From: Gluconacetobacter tumulicola
GTDB taxonomy: Bacteria > Pseudomonadota > Alphaproteobacteria > Acetobacterales > Acetobacteraceae
DNA: 64,000 bases
NCBI RefSeq assembly: GCF_014174215.1
Contig: NZ_JABEQL010000004.1
Location: forward strand, 62,001 to 126,000
Direction: 5' to 3'
The stretch's first letter is position 1. Every line of letters starts with the position of its first letter. The notes beneath the pieces were generated by a model. That model was not told where the DNA came from. It was given only the letters and a program-made list of their open reading frames with translations, and did not search any database. A program made the translations under genes and the position numbers. This document shows positions 43,920 to 62,610 of this stretch, piece by piece.

Positions 43920-44001
43920 CTTCTTTTTCTGAAGAAAAAGAAGCAAAAAGACTTTTGTTCGTTCAGGAGCCTTGTGCTTGCTCAAGCCAAGGCTCCTGAA
44001 C
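43920..44001. repeat. Family B hairpin mosaic, full copy (B2), bidirectional terminator
   Basis: First hairpin: perfect 10-bp CTTCTTTTTC / GAAAAAGAAG with a TGAA loop (43920-43943), followed by ACTTTTG. Second: perfect 14-bp inverted repeat 43961-43974 with 43988-44001. It fills the 94 bases between the convergent lysR gene and the AAA+ operon and should stop transcription both ways. Confidence 0.8.
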
Positions 44002-44004
44002 AGA

Positions 44005-45003
44005 TTACTCGCCCGGCAGGACCGAAGCCGGATCGCGGCTGGCGCGGACCAGCTCGGGGCTGCCGTTCGTCAGGTCGCCATGGAAGCCGCGCCGCAGCAT
44101 GGTCGTCCAGCCGTCCATCCAGCCATTGGCGGCGTTGACGAAGCGCTCGGCGCCCGGGTTCTGCGGCAGGGCCTGTTTCAGCCACTGTTCCGGCGGGGCG
44201 GGCAGCGTCATGGTGCCCTTGCGGGCCGGGCTGAGCAGGATGGTCACATTCTCGATGTTCGCACCGCGATCGGCGGCAGCTTCGGCGTAGTTCCAGGTCG
44301 CGACCAGCATGACGTACGGGATCGGGAAGCCCAGCACGTGCAGGCGGTTGAACGCGGTCTGGATATCCACGCTGTCGCTCAGCGGCTGGCCCTCGATCTG
44401 GACATGGCTGGTGAACCAGCATTCCATCACTTTCGACGCGCTGGGGACGATCCTGGACAGGTAGTTCCGGTCGTCGTGGCAGCCATTGTTCATCGAATCG
44501 ACGGTCGAGAGCGGCAGCGATTGCGTGCTGGCGCGCGCGATGATCACCCCGGTCACGACGCCGCCTTCGGCACGCACCAGCACGTTGCTGAGCAGTTCGC
44601 CGTGCGGGCCGCTCTGCGTCGTCAGCACCGGGTGCCAGGTGCCGGCGGGCAGGGGCAGGATGCGTCCGGCGAAGGGGATGGCGCCCGCCAGGTCCGAGGT
44701 GATGGGCGGGGCCGCCAGTTGCGGGCCGCCCGCCGTCTGCTGGCCATTGTCCGGCGTGCCGTCCACCGGTGGGGCGGGCGGTGCGGAGTCGGGCGGCGCG
44801 TCGGGGGAGGATGACGGTGCCGGCGGCGGCGTGGTGCGGCCCAGGGTGCGGTTGATCCGGTCGAACACCGGCCGCAGGGCCGGGACCGCACGCGTCAGGT
44901 ACGCCGGCGGGTAGAGCAGCGTCAGCGCCGTGAAGAGGGGGATGCAATAGAGCATCGCGCGCCAGATCGGCGCGCGATGCCAGAGACGGGAAGCTGCGGA
45001 CAT
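44005..45003 (-). CDS. Membrane-anchored periplasmic protein of unknown function (AAA+ operon, third gene)
   Basis: A 332-residue protein that I do not recognise. It has one membrane segment at about residues 14-33 (AMLYCIPLFTALTLLYPPAY), a Pro/Ser/Ala-rich linker at 57-100, then a folded domain of about 220 residues with two Cys (NNGCHDD and MECWF), compatible with an extracytoplasmic disulfide. No catalytic signature was seen. The first in-frame ATG lies 26 bases after the stop of the AAA+ ATPase gene on the same strand, and all three genes of the unit encode N-terminally membrane-anchored products. It is best read as a partner of that ATPase. The stop lies next to a family B terminator. 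Confidence 0.75.
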   Translation of the reverse strand: MSAASRLWHRAPIWRAMLYCIPLFTALTLLYPPAYLTRAVPALRPVFDRINRTLGRTTPPPAPSSSPDAPPDSAPPAPPVDGTPDNGQQTAGGPQLAAPPITSDLAGAIPFAGRILPLPAGTWHPVLTTQSGPHGELLSNVLVRAEGGVVTGVIIARASTQSLPLSTVDSMNNGCHDDRNYLSRIVPSASKVMECWFTSHVQIEGQPLSDSVDIQTAFNRLHVLGFPIPYVMLVATWNYAEAAADRGANIENVTILLSPARKGTMTLPAPPEQWLKQALPQNPGAERFVNAANGWMDGWTTMLRRGFHGDLTNGSPELVRASRDPASVLPGE

Positions 45004-45029
45004 TCAGGTCGCCGTACGGGAAAAGCGGG

Positions 45030-46298
45030 TCAGCGCAGGACGCGGGCCCGCTGGGCCTCGGTATCGTTGGCGATCTCGGCGCTCACGCCGTTCTCGCCGG
45101 AAATGACGCGCACCGTCTTCGCCCCCTGCTGGCGGGCGGAAATCAGCGAGTCGCTCATCATGTCTTCGATCGACCGTACCAGGTCGCGGGCGCTGGCGGC
45201 GGCGCCCATCTTGCTCTGGCGGCGCATGACCTCGAACAGCAGCGATGCGTCGATGCCGCCGGTCTCCACCTTCAGGCCGTAGCTTTCGATCATCGCCTCG
45301 ATCTCCAGCGCCGCGACGCGGGCCACGTCCAGGCCGGTCAGGGCGCGGAAGACGAAGATGCGGTCCAGGCGGTTCAGCACCTCGGGCGCGAAGCCGGCCT
45401 GGCGCAGGGCCTCGACCGACTCGGCACGCATGCGGTCGGGGTCGTCGGCCAGGCGGTCGGCGATCTCGGACAGGGCATCGGTCGCGATGTTCGACGTCAG
45501 CACGAAGATGGCGCGGACGGTGGAGATCTGCTGGCCGGTGGAGGCCTCGGTGACGTGCCCGTCATTCCACGCGGTGAGGAATTTCTTGAAGACGTCGGGA
45601 TGCGCCTTCTCGATTTCGTCGAGCAGGACGACGGCGTCGGGCTTTTCCTTCAGGCCGCCGGTCAGCTTGCCGAACGTGTCAGAGCCGACATAGCCCTTGG
45701 GCGAGCCGAAAAGCTGCGTCGCGGCATGCGGCGAGCTCATCTGCGTCATGTCGAAATGCAGCAGCGGGCGGTCGAGCTGCCGGGCCATCTGCTTGGCCAG
45801 GTAGGTCTTGCCGGTGCCCGGCGGGCCTGCCAGCAGGAAGATGCCGACCGGCTTGCCGCGCACCTGCAGCGCCATGCGGCGGCGGAGCTGGGCGGCGATG
45901 TCCTCGCAGACCTGGTCCTGCCCGATTACCCGCGCGCGCAGGCCGGCCGCCAGTTCCTCGGCATCGATCACCGTTTCTTTCTGGTCGCGCGCCAGCATTT
46001 CCTCCAGCGCGGTACGATTGGTCAGCCTGGCCAGTACATCCATCATCCACCCCCGTCGGCGCCGTAGCCCCTTGCGCGCCAGCCGTTCGGCGCGGGTTTC
46101 GAACATCAGTCCCGCCAGGGCCAGCAGGCTGCTCCCGCCCATCAGCACCGGAAAGGCCGGCGCACACCATTCCATGAAATGCGTCAGGCTGGCGAGTGAA
46201 AGATGCAGCGAGGCCGCGGCCTGCAGGCTGGCCAGGACCAGGAAAACGACCATCATGACCGGCATCAGCCGGTTGAGGGCGGGCAGGAGAGCCTTCAT
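45030..46298 (-). CDS. Membrane-anchored Clp/Hsp100-like AAA+ ATPase
   Basis: A 422-residue single-ring AAA+ protein with two N-terminal membrane segments (about 11-35 and 45-67) and a basic stretch (ERLARKGLRRRRGW), placing the ATPase in the cytosol. Walker A GPPGTGKT (158-165), pore loop GYVG (202-205), Walker B VVLLDEIEKAHPDV (D227, E228), sensor-1 Asn270 (LTSN) and an arginine-finger region NRLDRIFVF, followed by a ClpB D2-small-like C-terminal domain. The core resembles the second ATPase ring of ClpA/ClpB, but there is no first ring, N-domain or obvious ClpP-binding loop. Its start overlaps the stop of the upstream gene (ATGA). Likely a membrane-tethered unfoldase or remodeller; substrate unknown. 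Confidence 0.85.
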   Translation of the reverse strand: MKALLPALNRLMPVMMVVFLVLASLQAAASLHLSLASLTHFMEWCAPAFPVLMGGSSLLALAGLMFETRAERLARKGLRRRRGWMMDVLARLTNRTALEEMLARDQKETVIDAEELAAGLRARVIGQDQVCEDIAAQLRRRMALQVRGKPVGIFLLAGPPGTGKTYLAKQMARQLDRPLLHFDMTQMSSPHAATQLFGSPKGYVGSDTFGKLTGGLKEKPDAVVLLDEIEKAHPDVFKKFLTAWNDGHVTEASTGQQISTVRAIFVLTSNIATDALSEIADRLADDPDRMRAESVEALRQAGFAPEVLNRLDRIFVFRALTGLDVARVAALEIEAMIESYGLKVETGGIDASLLFEVMRRQSKMGAAASARDLVRSIEDMMSDSLISARQQGAKTVRVISGENGVSAEIANDTEAQRARVLR

Positions 46299-46897
46299 TG
46301 GACGATCACATCCATAACAAGCATCTGGTCCCGGTGAATGACCGGCAGCGGCGTCGGCCCCAGGACCGTGATGGCCCCCGGCGCCACGCCGGCCGGGCCA
46401 GGATCGGAAACCGGCGCGATATCGACCTCGCCGGATATGCGGATGGGCAGCAGCACGGTGCGTGGCTTGGGGGTCAGCGGCACGGTCTGGGTGATGCCGC
46501 CCGAACTGACGGTCACGATCCCGCCCGTGCCGGCCTCGTCATAGATCGGCATCTGGACCAGCCGGTATTCCCGCTTGCGGATGCCGGCCAGGATCCGGGC
46601 CTGCTGGTCGGGCGTCAGCCCCGATTGCTGCAGGGCGCGCGGCGCGTTATCGGGCGCGATCATGGCGAATTGCTGGGTGCTGGTCAGGGTGCCGGCCCCG
46701 GCGGCGGCACCATGGGCGGCATCGCTGACGATCGGGGCGGGCGCCGGGGCCGGGTGCTCGCTCTGGCTGGCCATGCGGGCGCTGAAACCGGCCACGACGA
46801 TCATGCCCGCCGCCAGGCCGTACCATAGGGGCCGGCCTTTGCCGGGTCCGGCCTCGTCGGGCGCGGCGCGTGCTTCGGGATCGGGCGTCTGCCTCAT
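46295..46897 (-). CDS. Membrane-anchored protein of unknown function (AAA+ operon, first gene)
   Basis: Unrecognised. From the ATG at 46897 it has 200 residues: an acidic N-terminal tail, a membrane segment at about 23-41 (LWYGLAAGMIVVAGFSA), a Pro/Ala linker, then a periplasmic-facing part of about 130 residues with a Gln/Arg-rich helix (LTPDQQARILAGIRKREYRL) and beta-rich end (VLLPIRISGEVDI). The start is uncertain: the ATG at 46921 (208 residues) is equally possible, and the frame is open to 47002. It overlaps the AAA+ gene by 4 bases. Same topology as the third gene, suggesting a membrane complex. Confidence 0.7.
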   Translation of the reverse strand: MRQTPDPEARAAPDEAGPGKGRPLWYGLAAGMIVVAGFSARMASQSEHPAPAPAPIVSDAAHGAAAGAGTLTSTQQFAMIAPDNAPRALQQSGLTPDQQARILAGIRKREYRLVQMPIYDEAGTGGIVTVSSGGITQTVPLTPKPRTVLLPIRISGEVDIAPVSDPGPAGVAPGAITVLGPTPLPVIHRDQMLVMDVIVQ

Positions 46898-47070
46898 GTC
46901 CGTATCATGCGTGCGCCCCATGCGGTTGGGCAAGCATGCAAACGAGGACGTGATTGTAATGTAATGTAGCCCCTGTGGTTCGCCCGGGTGCTGCCGGCGC
47001 ATGCACCTTGCGGCGGCATGCGTTATCGCCTATATCAGCTGCATTCCTTCATCTTCCGCTTTTCTTGGGG

Positions 47071-61864: not shown

Positions 61865-62610
61865 GACGCGTCGCTCCGCGCGCCCAGTGCAGCGTCCACC
61901 GCCGCGCGCTGGGCGGCGAACAGATGCTGCGTGCCGTCCTGCGCCAGACGCAGCAGGGCCTCGAACTGCGCCTGCGAGAAGGGGGCCTGCTCGGCCGTGC
62001 CCTGGATCTCGACGATGCCGCCGGCCTCGGTCAGGACGAAATTGGCGTCGGCGGCGGCCGCGCTGTCCTCGTCGTAATCAAGGTCCAGCACTGCCCCGGC
62101 CCCGGTCAGGCCGCAGGAGATCGCGGCGACCTGCGCCGTCAGCGGCACGCGGGCCAGGACGCGGTTGCGCACCAGCTTTTCCAGCGCCAGCCGCAGGGCG
62201 ACCCAGGCGCCGGTGATCGAGGCGCAGCGGGTGCCGCCATCGGCATTCAGCACGTCGCAATCGACGGTGATCGAGATTTCGCCCAGCGCGCTGAGGTCGG
62301 TCACGGCGCGCAGCGAGCGGCCGATCAGGCGCTGGATTTCCTGCGTGCGGCCCGACTGCTTGCCCTTTGCGGCCTCGCGCGCGCCGCGCGTGTGGGTGGC
62401 GCGGGGCAGCATGCCGTATTCCGCCGTCACCCAGCCCTTGCCCTGGCCGCGCAGGAAGGGCGGCACGCGCGGTTCGACACTGGCGGCGCACAGCACCTCG
62501 GTCCCGCCCATGCGGATCAGGGCCGATCCCTCGGCGTGGCGGGCAAAGCCCGTTTCGATGGAGACGGGGCGCAGCGCGTCGGGGGCGCGGCCCGAGGGGC
62601 GGGTGGTCAT
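61861..62610 (-). CDS. rph: Ribonuclease PH
   Basis: Phosphorolytic 3'-5' exoribonuclease that trims tRNA precursors. The 249-residue product shows the single PH domain: [53 protein letters not shown], and [20 protein letters not shown] with the conserved D-x-L-x-x-D/G motif. The ATG at 62610 is taken; a TTG two codons upstream (62616) sits 6 bases after GGAG and may be the real start. It overlaps rdgB at its 3' end and is divergent from hrcA. Confidence 0.96.

Follow-up and report, generated by a model that had tools for sequence, protein, structure and literature searches.

A probable three-gene operon of Acetobacteraceae encoding a membrane-tethered, single-ring Clp-type ATPase and two predicted outward-facing partners

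The 64,000-nucleotide stretch analysed here (the window; positions 62,001 to 126,000 of the Gluconacetobacter tumulicola contig NZ_JABEQL010000004.1) carries on its minus strand three adjacent genes, called A, B and C, whose open reading frames (ORFs) were confirmed at the coordinates given in an initial annotation of the same DNA (Table 1). B encodes a single-ring ATPase of the Clp/Hsp100 type anchored in the membrane, and the three genes are conserved together. We propose, with moderate confidence and on the strength of sequence comparisons, that A, B and C would build a membrane-tethered unfoldase or remodeler of envelope proteins. The ORF check bore out two features of the initial annotation, the overlap of A and B by ATGA (46295-46298) and the start of C 26 bases past the end of B. 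Because of this overlap and gap, the hairpin found directly 3' of C and the divergent rimP-nusA-infB set upstream of A (gene names taken from a reading of the ORF sequences), the three genes most likely form one operon.

The alignment with E. coli ClpA and ClpB showed that B carries GPPGTGKT, KGYVGSD, VVLLDEIEKAH, TSN, LNRLD and SAR, which we take to be, in this order, Walker A, the pore loop, Walker B, sensor 1, the arginine finger and sensor 2. Pfam AAA_2 matched residues 149-313 (1.1e-36, 126.9 bits). The best NCBIfam matches were the second rings of ClpB and ClpA, that of ClpB spanning residues 87-403, and the nearest Protein Data Bank (PDB) chains were the second rings of ClpE, ClpC and ClpB. 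With both Walker motifs, both sensors, the arginine finger and the aromatic pore loop present, B belongs to the second-ring type of Clp/Hsp100 AAA+ proteins. Before about residue 95 there are only two hydrophobic helices and a basic linker, with neither a first ring nor an N-domain, and the alignment found no IGL-type ClpP loop opposite the IGL of E. coli ClpA. The initial annotation had read the Walker motifs, the GYVG pore loop and sensor 1 of a ClpA/ClpB second ring in this gene and had seen no first ring, N-domain or obvious ClpP loop; the alignment and the domain scan agree with it on each point. A tree was built from 21 rows, 20 of them different, which comprised E. coli ClpA and ClpB, two Clp proteins of the same genome, three viral Clp rings and 14 B rows; the Methylorubrum row and one row of B with a degenerate ATPase site (dead B, described below) were long branches. 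All 14 B rows lay on one side of a branch with 100/100 support and a length of 3.09, and B is, as judged from this tree, a clade separate from the ClpA and ClpB rings compared. B is 97% identical to its counterpart in G. dulcium. A search of its own genome found no second copy, the four other matches being two long Clp-like proteins (open frames of 872 and 883 amino acids, aa) and two weak ones.

A search accepting matches of E 1e-60 or stronger found B in 72 of the 299 Acetobacteraceae genomes sampled and in 25 of 102 genera, and all 72 loci were fetched. C lay directly downstream of B on the same strand in every one of them and A lay upstream in 66, a tally made without dropping rows on genomes selected for having B, the profiles having come in part from these loci. 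The limits for accepting C were 400 bases on each side and for A an overlap of 2500 bases to a gap of 400 bases, both at E below 0.01; the wide overlap was allowed since A frames with early starts overlap B. Locus L206 was counted as complete although its B frame has only 272 aa. The six loci lacking A are five with a degenerate B and L205, where B reaches the contig end. Among the 28 loci fetched last, of which L201 is apparently the same contig as the profile row L100, C was found in 28 and A in 26. Within the genus, C was found in 13 of 14 genomes, the exception being an 87% complete assembly of 1310 contigs. Co-occurrence across the Acetobacteraceae had been set as a check by the initial annotation, and finding the trio together in 66 of the 72 genomes is more than chance. 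That annotation had also named two outcomes that would count against its reading, partners from known families with unrelated roles and a trio not conserved together. The second is answered by this tally; as to the first, A and C, which it had described as being of an unclassified family, had no significant match to any Pfam or NCBIfam family.

In the acetic acid bacteria the trio occupies a mostly constant place near an amino-acid ATP-binding cassette (ABC) transporter gene, and its conservation there, taken alone, could be mere synteny. In other Acetobacteraceae it sits among different neighbours. A comparison of 17 loci (Acetobacteraceae outside the acetic acid bacteria plus Burkholderia and Accumulibacter, with L100/L201 as one apparent duplicate), in which a group had to occur in 3 or more loci at E 1e-15 to be listed, found B groups in 17 loci, A in 12 plus 4 and C in 11; the other groups occurred in at most 4 loci or were alternate or antisense frames of the trio. 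The A-B-C order is also kept, among the matches listed in a contig scan, in Burkholderia sp. Ac-20379, an Accumulibacter and an Azonexus, and in a further, fourth betaproteobacterium, where it adjoins a lipA-like gene (named by eye). Beyond the family the trio is rare: the search through B matched 2 genomes of 385 from the class and 2 of 398 from the phylum, each time the G. tumulicola genome itself and another member of the Acetobacteraceae. On these comparisons the trio is one evolutionary unit, and its spread looks like vertical keeping in the acetic acid bacteria with occasional transfer elsewhere.

Five genomes of 2.0-2.4 Mb, from three genus groups (loci L057, L207, L058, L059 and L060), carry a degenerate B. 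Walker A reads GNGKK, GTGKK or GTGKN instead of GTGKT, Walker B is changed and GYVG is gone; the arginine finger is also lost in L058-L060. A is missing from all five and C is kept in all five. In contrast, all 66 A-bearing genomes keep Walker A as GxPGTGKT, the pore loop as GYVG, GYIG or GFVG, and LLDE[IF]EK, the two variants, both trivial, being GAPGTGKT together with GYIG (L056) and GFVG (L185). When the dead or intact label is placed on a quick 33-row tree of the neighbouring transporter, it requires 3 changes, 2 of them forced by starred branches, and an intact trio also occurs in two of the three genus groups with dead B. ATPase function and A were probably lost together more than once, and A seems to be coupled to a working motor. 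The ratio of nonsynonymous to synonymous substitution rates (dN/dS) was 0.057 for dead B and 0.07 for C in L057/L207, the only dead-B pair close enough, the ratio being saturated in L059/L060 and in one intact pair; B gave 0.018 and 0.031 in two intact pairs, and a third had no amino acid change. The value for dead B in L057/L207 shows purifying selection, and B and C seem to keep an ATP-independent use in these lineages. From Walker A to Walker B, identity to the window is 85-98% in intact rows (63% in the divergent L056) as opposed to 27-52% in the four dead B compared, and in L058-L060 this stretch now falls below the linker (44-49%) and the small domain (40-44%). The pattern points to a division of labour that the initial annotation had not foreseen, in which A would go with the active motor and C with B even if the motor is dead.

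N-terminal membrane segments had initially been read in all three proteins. This holds plainly for B, in which the 19-residue hydropathy is 2.2 and 1.77; in the window the peaks of A and C are low, only 1.35 and 1.46, and it is the family rows that mostly reach 1.5 or more (27 of 32 for A, 31 of 38 for C). The AlphaFold model of C has a helix at 12-30, and that of A leaves the N-terminal third without confident modelling. Because of their basic tails (seen by eye), the two invariant cysteines of C and the relatives of the C domain that begin with signal peptides or lipoprotein starts, we infer that the domains of A and C would lie outside the membrane. The outer domain of C probably has a Mog1/PsbP-like fold, as judged from its model: its top fold matches were Mog1 and PsbP, and it is also akin in fold to periplasmic immunity proteins. 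It is the same domain as that of an unnamed secreted alphaproteobacterial family with the pattern PLPxGxW...C...C (hhalign 99.2%, E 1.4e-19, 214 columns, against three members). Unlike C, those proteins begin, by eye, with a signal peptide or lipoprotein start and, in those inspected, have no LWxRAPxWR tail. For the beta-sandwich of A the fold comparison gave no clear match.

The anatomy of B, the gene unit, the absence of A where the ATPase site is lost and the maintenance of dead B with C can be read from the genomes compared, and from these we infer a topology for A and C, an assembly, a direction of pulling and a substrate. A, B and C would form one inner-membrane machine. On its cytoplasmic side, B subunits would assemble into one Clp-type ring, each subunit held in the membrane by two helices. 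With the GYVG pore loop and ATP this ring would exert a pull on envelope proteins, unfolding them, extracting them or dismantling complexes at the membrane, and would work like Hsp100, Msp1 or FtsH though with no protease. C would be the stable partner of B, with its cytoplasmic LWxRAPxWR tail and its helix next to B and its disulfide-bonded outer domain acting as receptor or scaffold, and A would be an arm for coupling or for presenting substrate, required only while the motor is active. Several observations weigh against this proposal. Few independent events lie behind the co-loss pattern, and the estimate of selection on dead B comes from a single pair. The Walker A-to-B stretch of L057 (52%) is still its best kept part, and the small domain of dead B has drifted too (40-44%, against 59-84% in intact rows except L056). 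Because ATPase-dead B is retained with C, part of the function is not unfolding at all. Neither the beta-sandwich of A nor the fold of C yields a direct functional hint. Betaproteobacteria seldom have the trio: counts that include the query genome are 1 of 65 genomes for the genus Burkholderia and 2 of 91 for the Accumulibacter family, and so sparse a spread is not what a housekeeping quality-control system would show. On a Microvirga plasmid B has neither A nor C nearby.

The main competitor, which we consider unlikely, is an energy transducer in which B would hydrolyse ATP to move A and so pass force or a conformational change to a partner on the outer face, with no polypeptide going through the pore. 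GspA/GspB and torsin with LAP1 are thought to act as such transducers. The loss of A in all five genomes that have lost the ATPase site fits a mechanically coupled arm, and B is a membrane-tethered single ring as this mechanism would have it. However, the aromatic pore loop kept in all 66 A-bearing genomes points to threading, the torsin Pfam score of window B is 22.1 under a cutoff of 27, and neither GspA nor torsin is from the AAA+ group of B. A ClpP-linked or FtsH-like membrane protease would account for a Clp-type ring at the membrane, but the absence from B of the IGL-type ClpP loop (by the ClpA alignment) and of HExxH (by eye) leaves it hardly credible.

The patchy spread of the trio and the immunity-like fold neighbours of C make possible a role in envelope defence or surveillance, with C as a receptor related in fold to periplasmic immunity proteins and a motor that would remove an incoming toxin or phage component or render it inactive. 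We nevertheless rate this role improbable: the acetic acid bacteria examined keep the trio mostly at one chromosomal place, near the transporter gene and rimP-nusA-infB, no PADLOC model was matched by A or C and B was matched only through its AAA domain, and the top fold matches of C, Mog1 and PsbP, are not immunity proteins. Somewhat more doubtful again is an import or secretion motor, whose ring would power the passage of a polypeptide through the inner membrane. Analogues are Hsp93 of the chloroplast envelope and HSP101 of the malaria export complex, and an Hsp100 ring fixed at the membrane with membrane partners would suit such a motor; yet one or two membrane helices per protein would be few for a channel, and no cargo gene recurred beside the trio in the 17-locus comparison.

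The proposed unfoldase shares features with several known systems. B resembles the second ring of ClpB, ClpC and ClpA in its motifs and its best profile and PDB matches, but it has one ring only, two membrane helices in place of the N-domain and first ring, and no ClpP loop. FtsH with HflK/HflC is likewise a membrane-tethered AAA+ ring with periplasm-facing partners, although it is of a different AAA+ group, has a zinc protease domain and works with unrelated partners. Msp1/ATAD1 is also a membrane-anchored single AAA+ ring without a protease, but belongs to a different AAA+ group, with one membrane helix and no operon partners. Torsin with LAP1/LULL1 and Skd3 (human CLPB) each have, like B, one ring of the type found as the second ring of ClpB. 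The partners of torsin are type II membrane proteins, but they are AAA-like and torsin itself lies on the opposite side of the membrane; Skd3 differs in being soluble and in having ankyrin repeats. GspA/GspB (ExeAB) couples a cytoplasmic AAA+ ring to a periplasmic partner as B might, with a different AAA+ group and domain make-up.

The ring of B is of a known kind, that of Hsp100, and its anchoring, missing first ring and two outward partners are undescribed together as far as searches of open-access literature show. The titles and abstract beginnings returned by those searches yielded no description of such a system, a weak negative that accords with the initial annotation, which had named no described system of this composition. 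More tentatively, the trio could represent a membrane AAA+ machine derived from an Hsp100 second ring independently of FtsH, Msp1 and torsin, a three-part trans-membrane motor with A as an arm for the ATP-driven state only and C as a Mog1/PsbP-like receptor serving the ring even as a pseudo-ATPase. To our knowledge, very few bacterial AAA+ motors are anchored in the inner membrane, FtsH being the chief one, and an operon that is conserved across acetic acid bacteria and joins a solitary Hsp100 ring with two outward-facing partners would extend this short list. The lineages with a dead ATPase, no A and a kept C are a natural mutant series in which the roles of the parts are directly testable, and the hosts include cultivable acetic acid bacteria used in food and cellulose production.

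Several other assignments of B were tried and rejected. A class 1 Hsp100 (ClpA, ClpB, ClpC) is ruled out by the single AAA domain, the missing N-domain and the length of 422 aa, and a ClpP-partner ATPase by the absent IGL-type loop. FtsH is excluded by the lack of HExxH, with its model scoring only 18 bits over residues 150-175, and MoxR of the MoxR-vWA ternary systems by a bpMoxR score of 26.5 bits (cutoff 27), far under that of AAA_2. A Dodola-like ClpB defence pair (DolAB, presumably a DolB-type ATPase with a DUF6414 partner) is ruled out by a DolB match of only 74-76 bits to the AAA part and by partners without any Pfam family. Torsin (PF06309) is ruled out by its score in window B; the Accumulibacter B just passes with 27.2 bits and L056 reaches 26.2, both far under AAA_2, and the apparent kinship of B with torsin is at the AAA level only.

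Table 1. Features of the A-B-C locus (window positions) and long open A frames at other loci (locus positions)
Feature	Coordinates	Strand	Remarks
Gene A	46295..46897	-	200 aa; short N-terminal tail, one membrane segment, outer domain of helical hairpin and beta-sandwich
Hydrophobic segment of A (residues 24-42)	46772..46828	-	hydropathy 1.35
Gene B	45030..46298	-	422 aa; membrane-anchored single-ring Clp D2-type AAA+ ATPase
Membrane helix 1 of B (residues 11-29)	46212..46268	-	by hydropathy
Membrane helix 2 of B (residues 48-66)	46101..46157	-	by hydropathy; followed by 7 K/R in 15 residues
Walker A GPPGTGKT of B (residues 158-165)	45804..45827	-	
Pore loop GYVG of B (residues 202-205)	45684..45695	-	
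Walker B LLDE of B (residues 225-228)	45615..45626	-	
Gene C	44005..45003	-	332 aa; short tail with LWxRAPxWR motif, membrane helix, outer domain
LWxRAPxWR motif near start of C (residues 7-15)	44959..44985	-	conserved, kept into Burkholderia
Outer domain of C (residues 106-310)	44074..44688	-	two invariant Cys (175, 195)
Hairpin then T-rich stretch, putative operon terminator	43960..44001	-	-34.2 kcal/mol for 75-nt stretch, z -5.3 (against 200 shuffles)
Long open A frames	L064:10076-13048, L093:1606-5004, L094:1795-5004		

The start of A at 46897 was picked by eye from the family alignment, and an alternative in-frame start lies upstream at 47002. At Komagataeibacter-type loci the A frame is open far upstream (open frames of 990, 1132 and 1069 aa, Table 1) and the true start of A is unsure there. 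In the spacer between A and rimP, the sequence ATTGTAATGTAATGT (ACATTACATTACAAT on the operon strand) at window positions 46953-46967 is identical letter for letter in L024, L026 and L091, all three other rows reaching that site (three further rows end before it), and is a candidate for a shared promoter or operator element.

Domains related to those of A and C, and one neighbour of the trio, were seen in other settings. The Accumulibacter trio has a reverse transcriptase downstream (L102:4658-6112; RVT_1; best PADLOC models RT_other and RT_outgroup), a single locus that may be due to chance. On the Methylorubrum plasmid pB146-2 (L177:7764-9346), an A-like gene overlaps one for a one-helix Clp-like ATPase with GPPGSAKS and no GYVG, and the pair adjoins mobQ and a coupling-protein gene. 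On a Rhodovulum plasmid (L178:7074-8267), an A-type domain forms the C-terminal end of a protein of 397 aa that, by eye, starts with a signal-like stretch and whose N-terminal domain differs from that of A. Proteins with a C-type domain adjoin a ShlB/FhaC-type transporter in two genomes of one family (L088:6326-8020, L089:6202-9509); L089 further has an adjoining gene with a FecR domain and, close by, a rhomboid gene.

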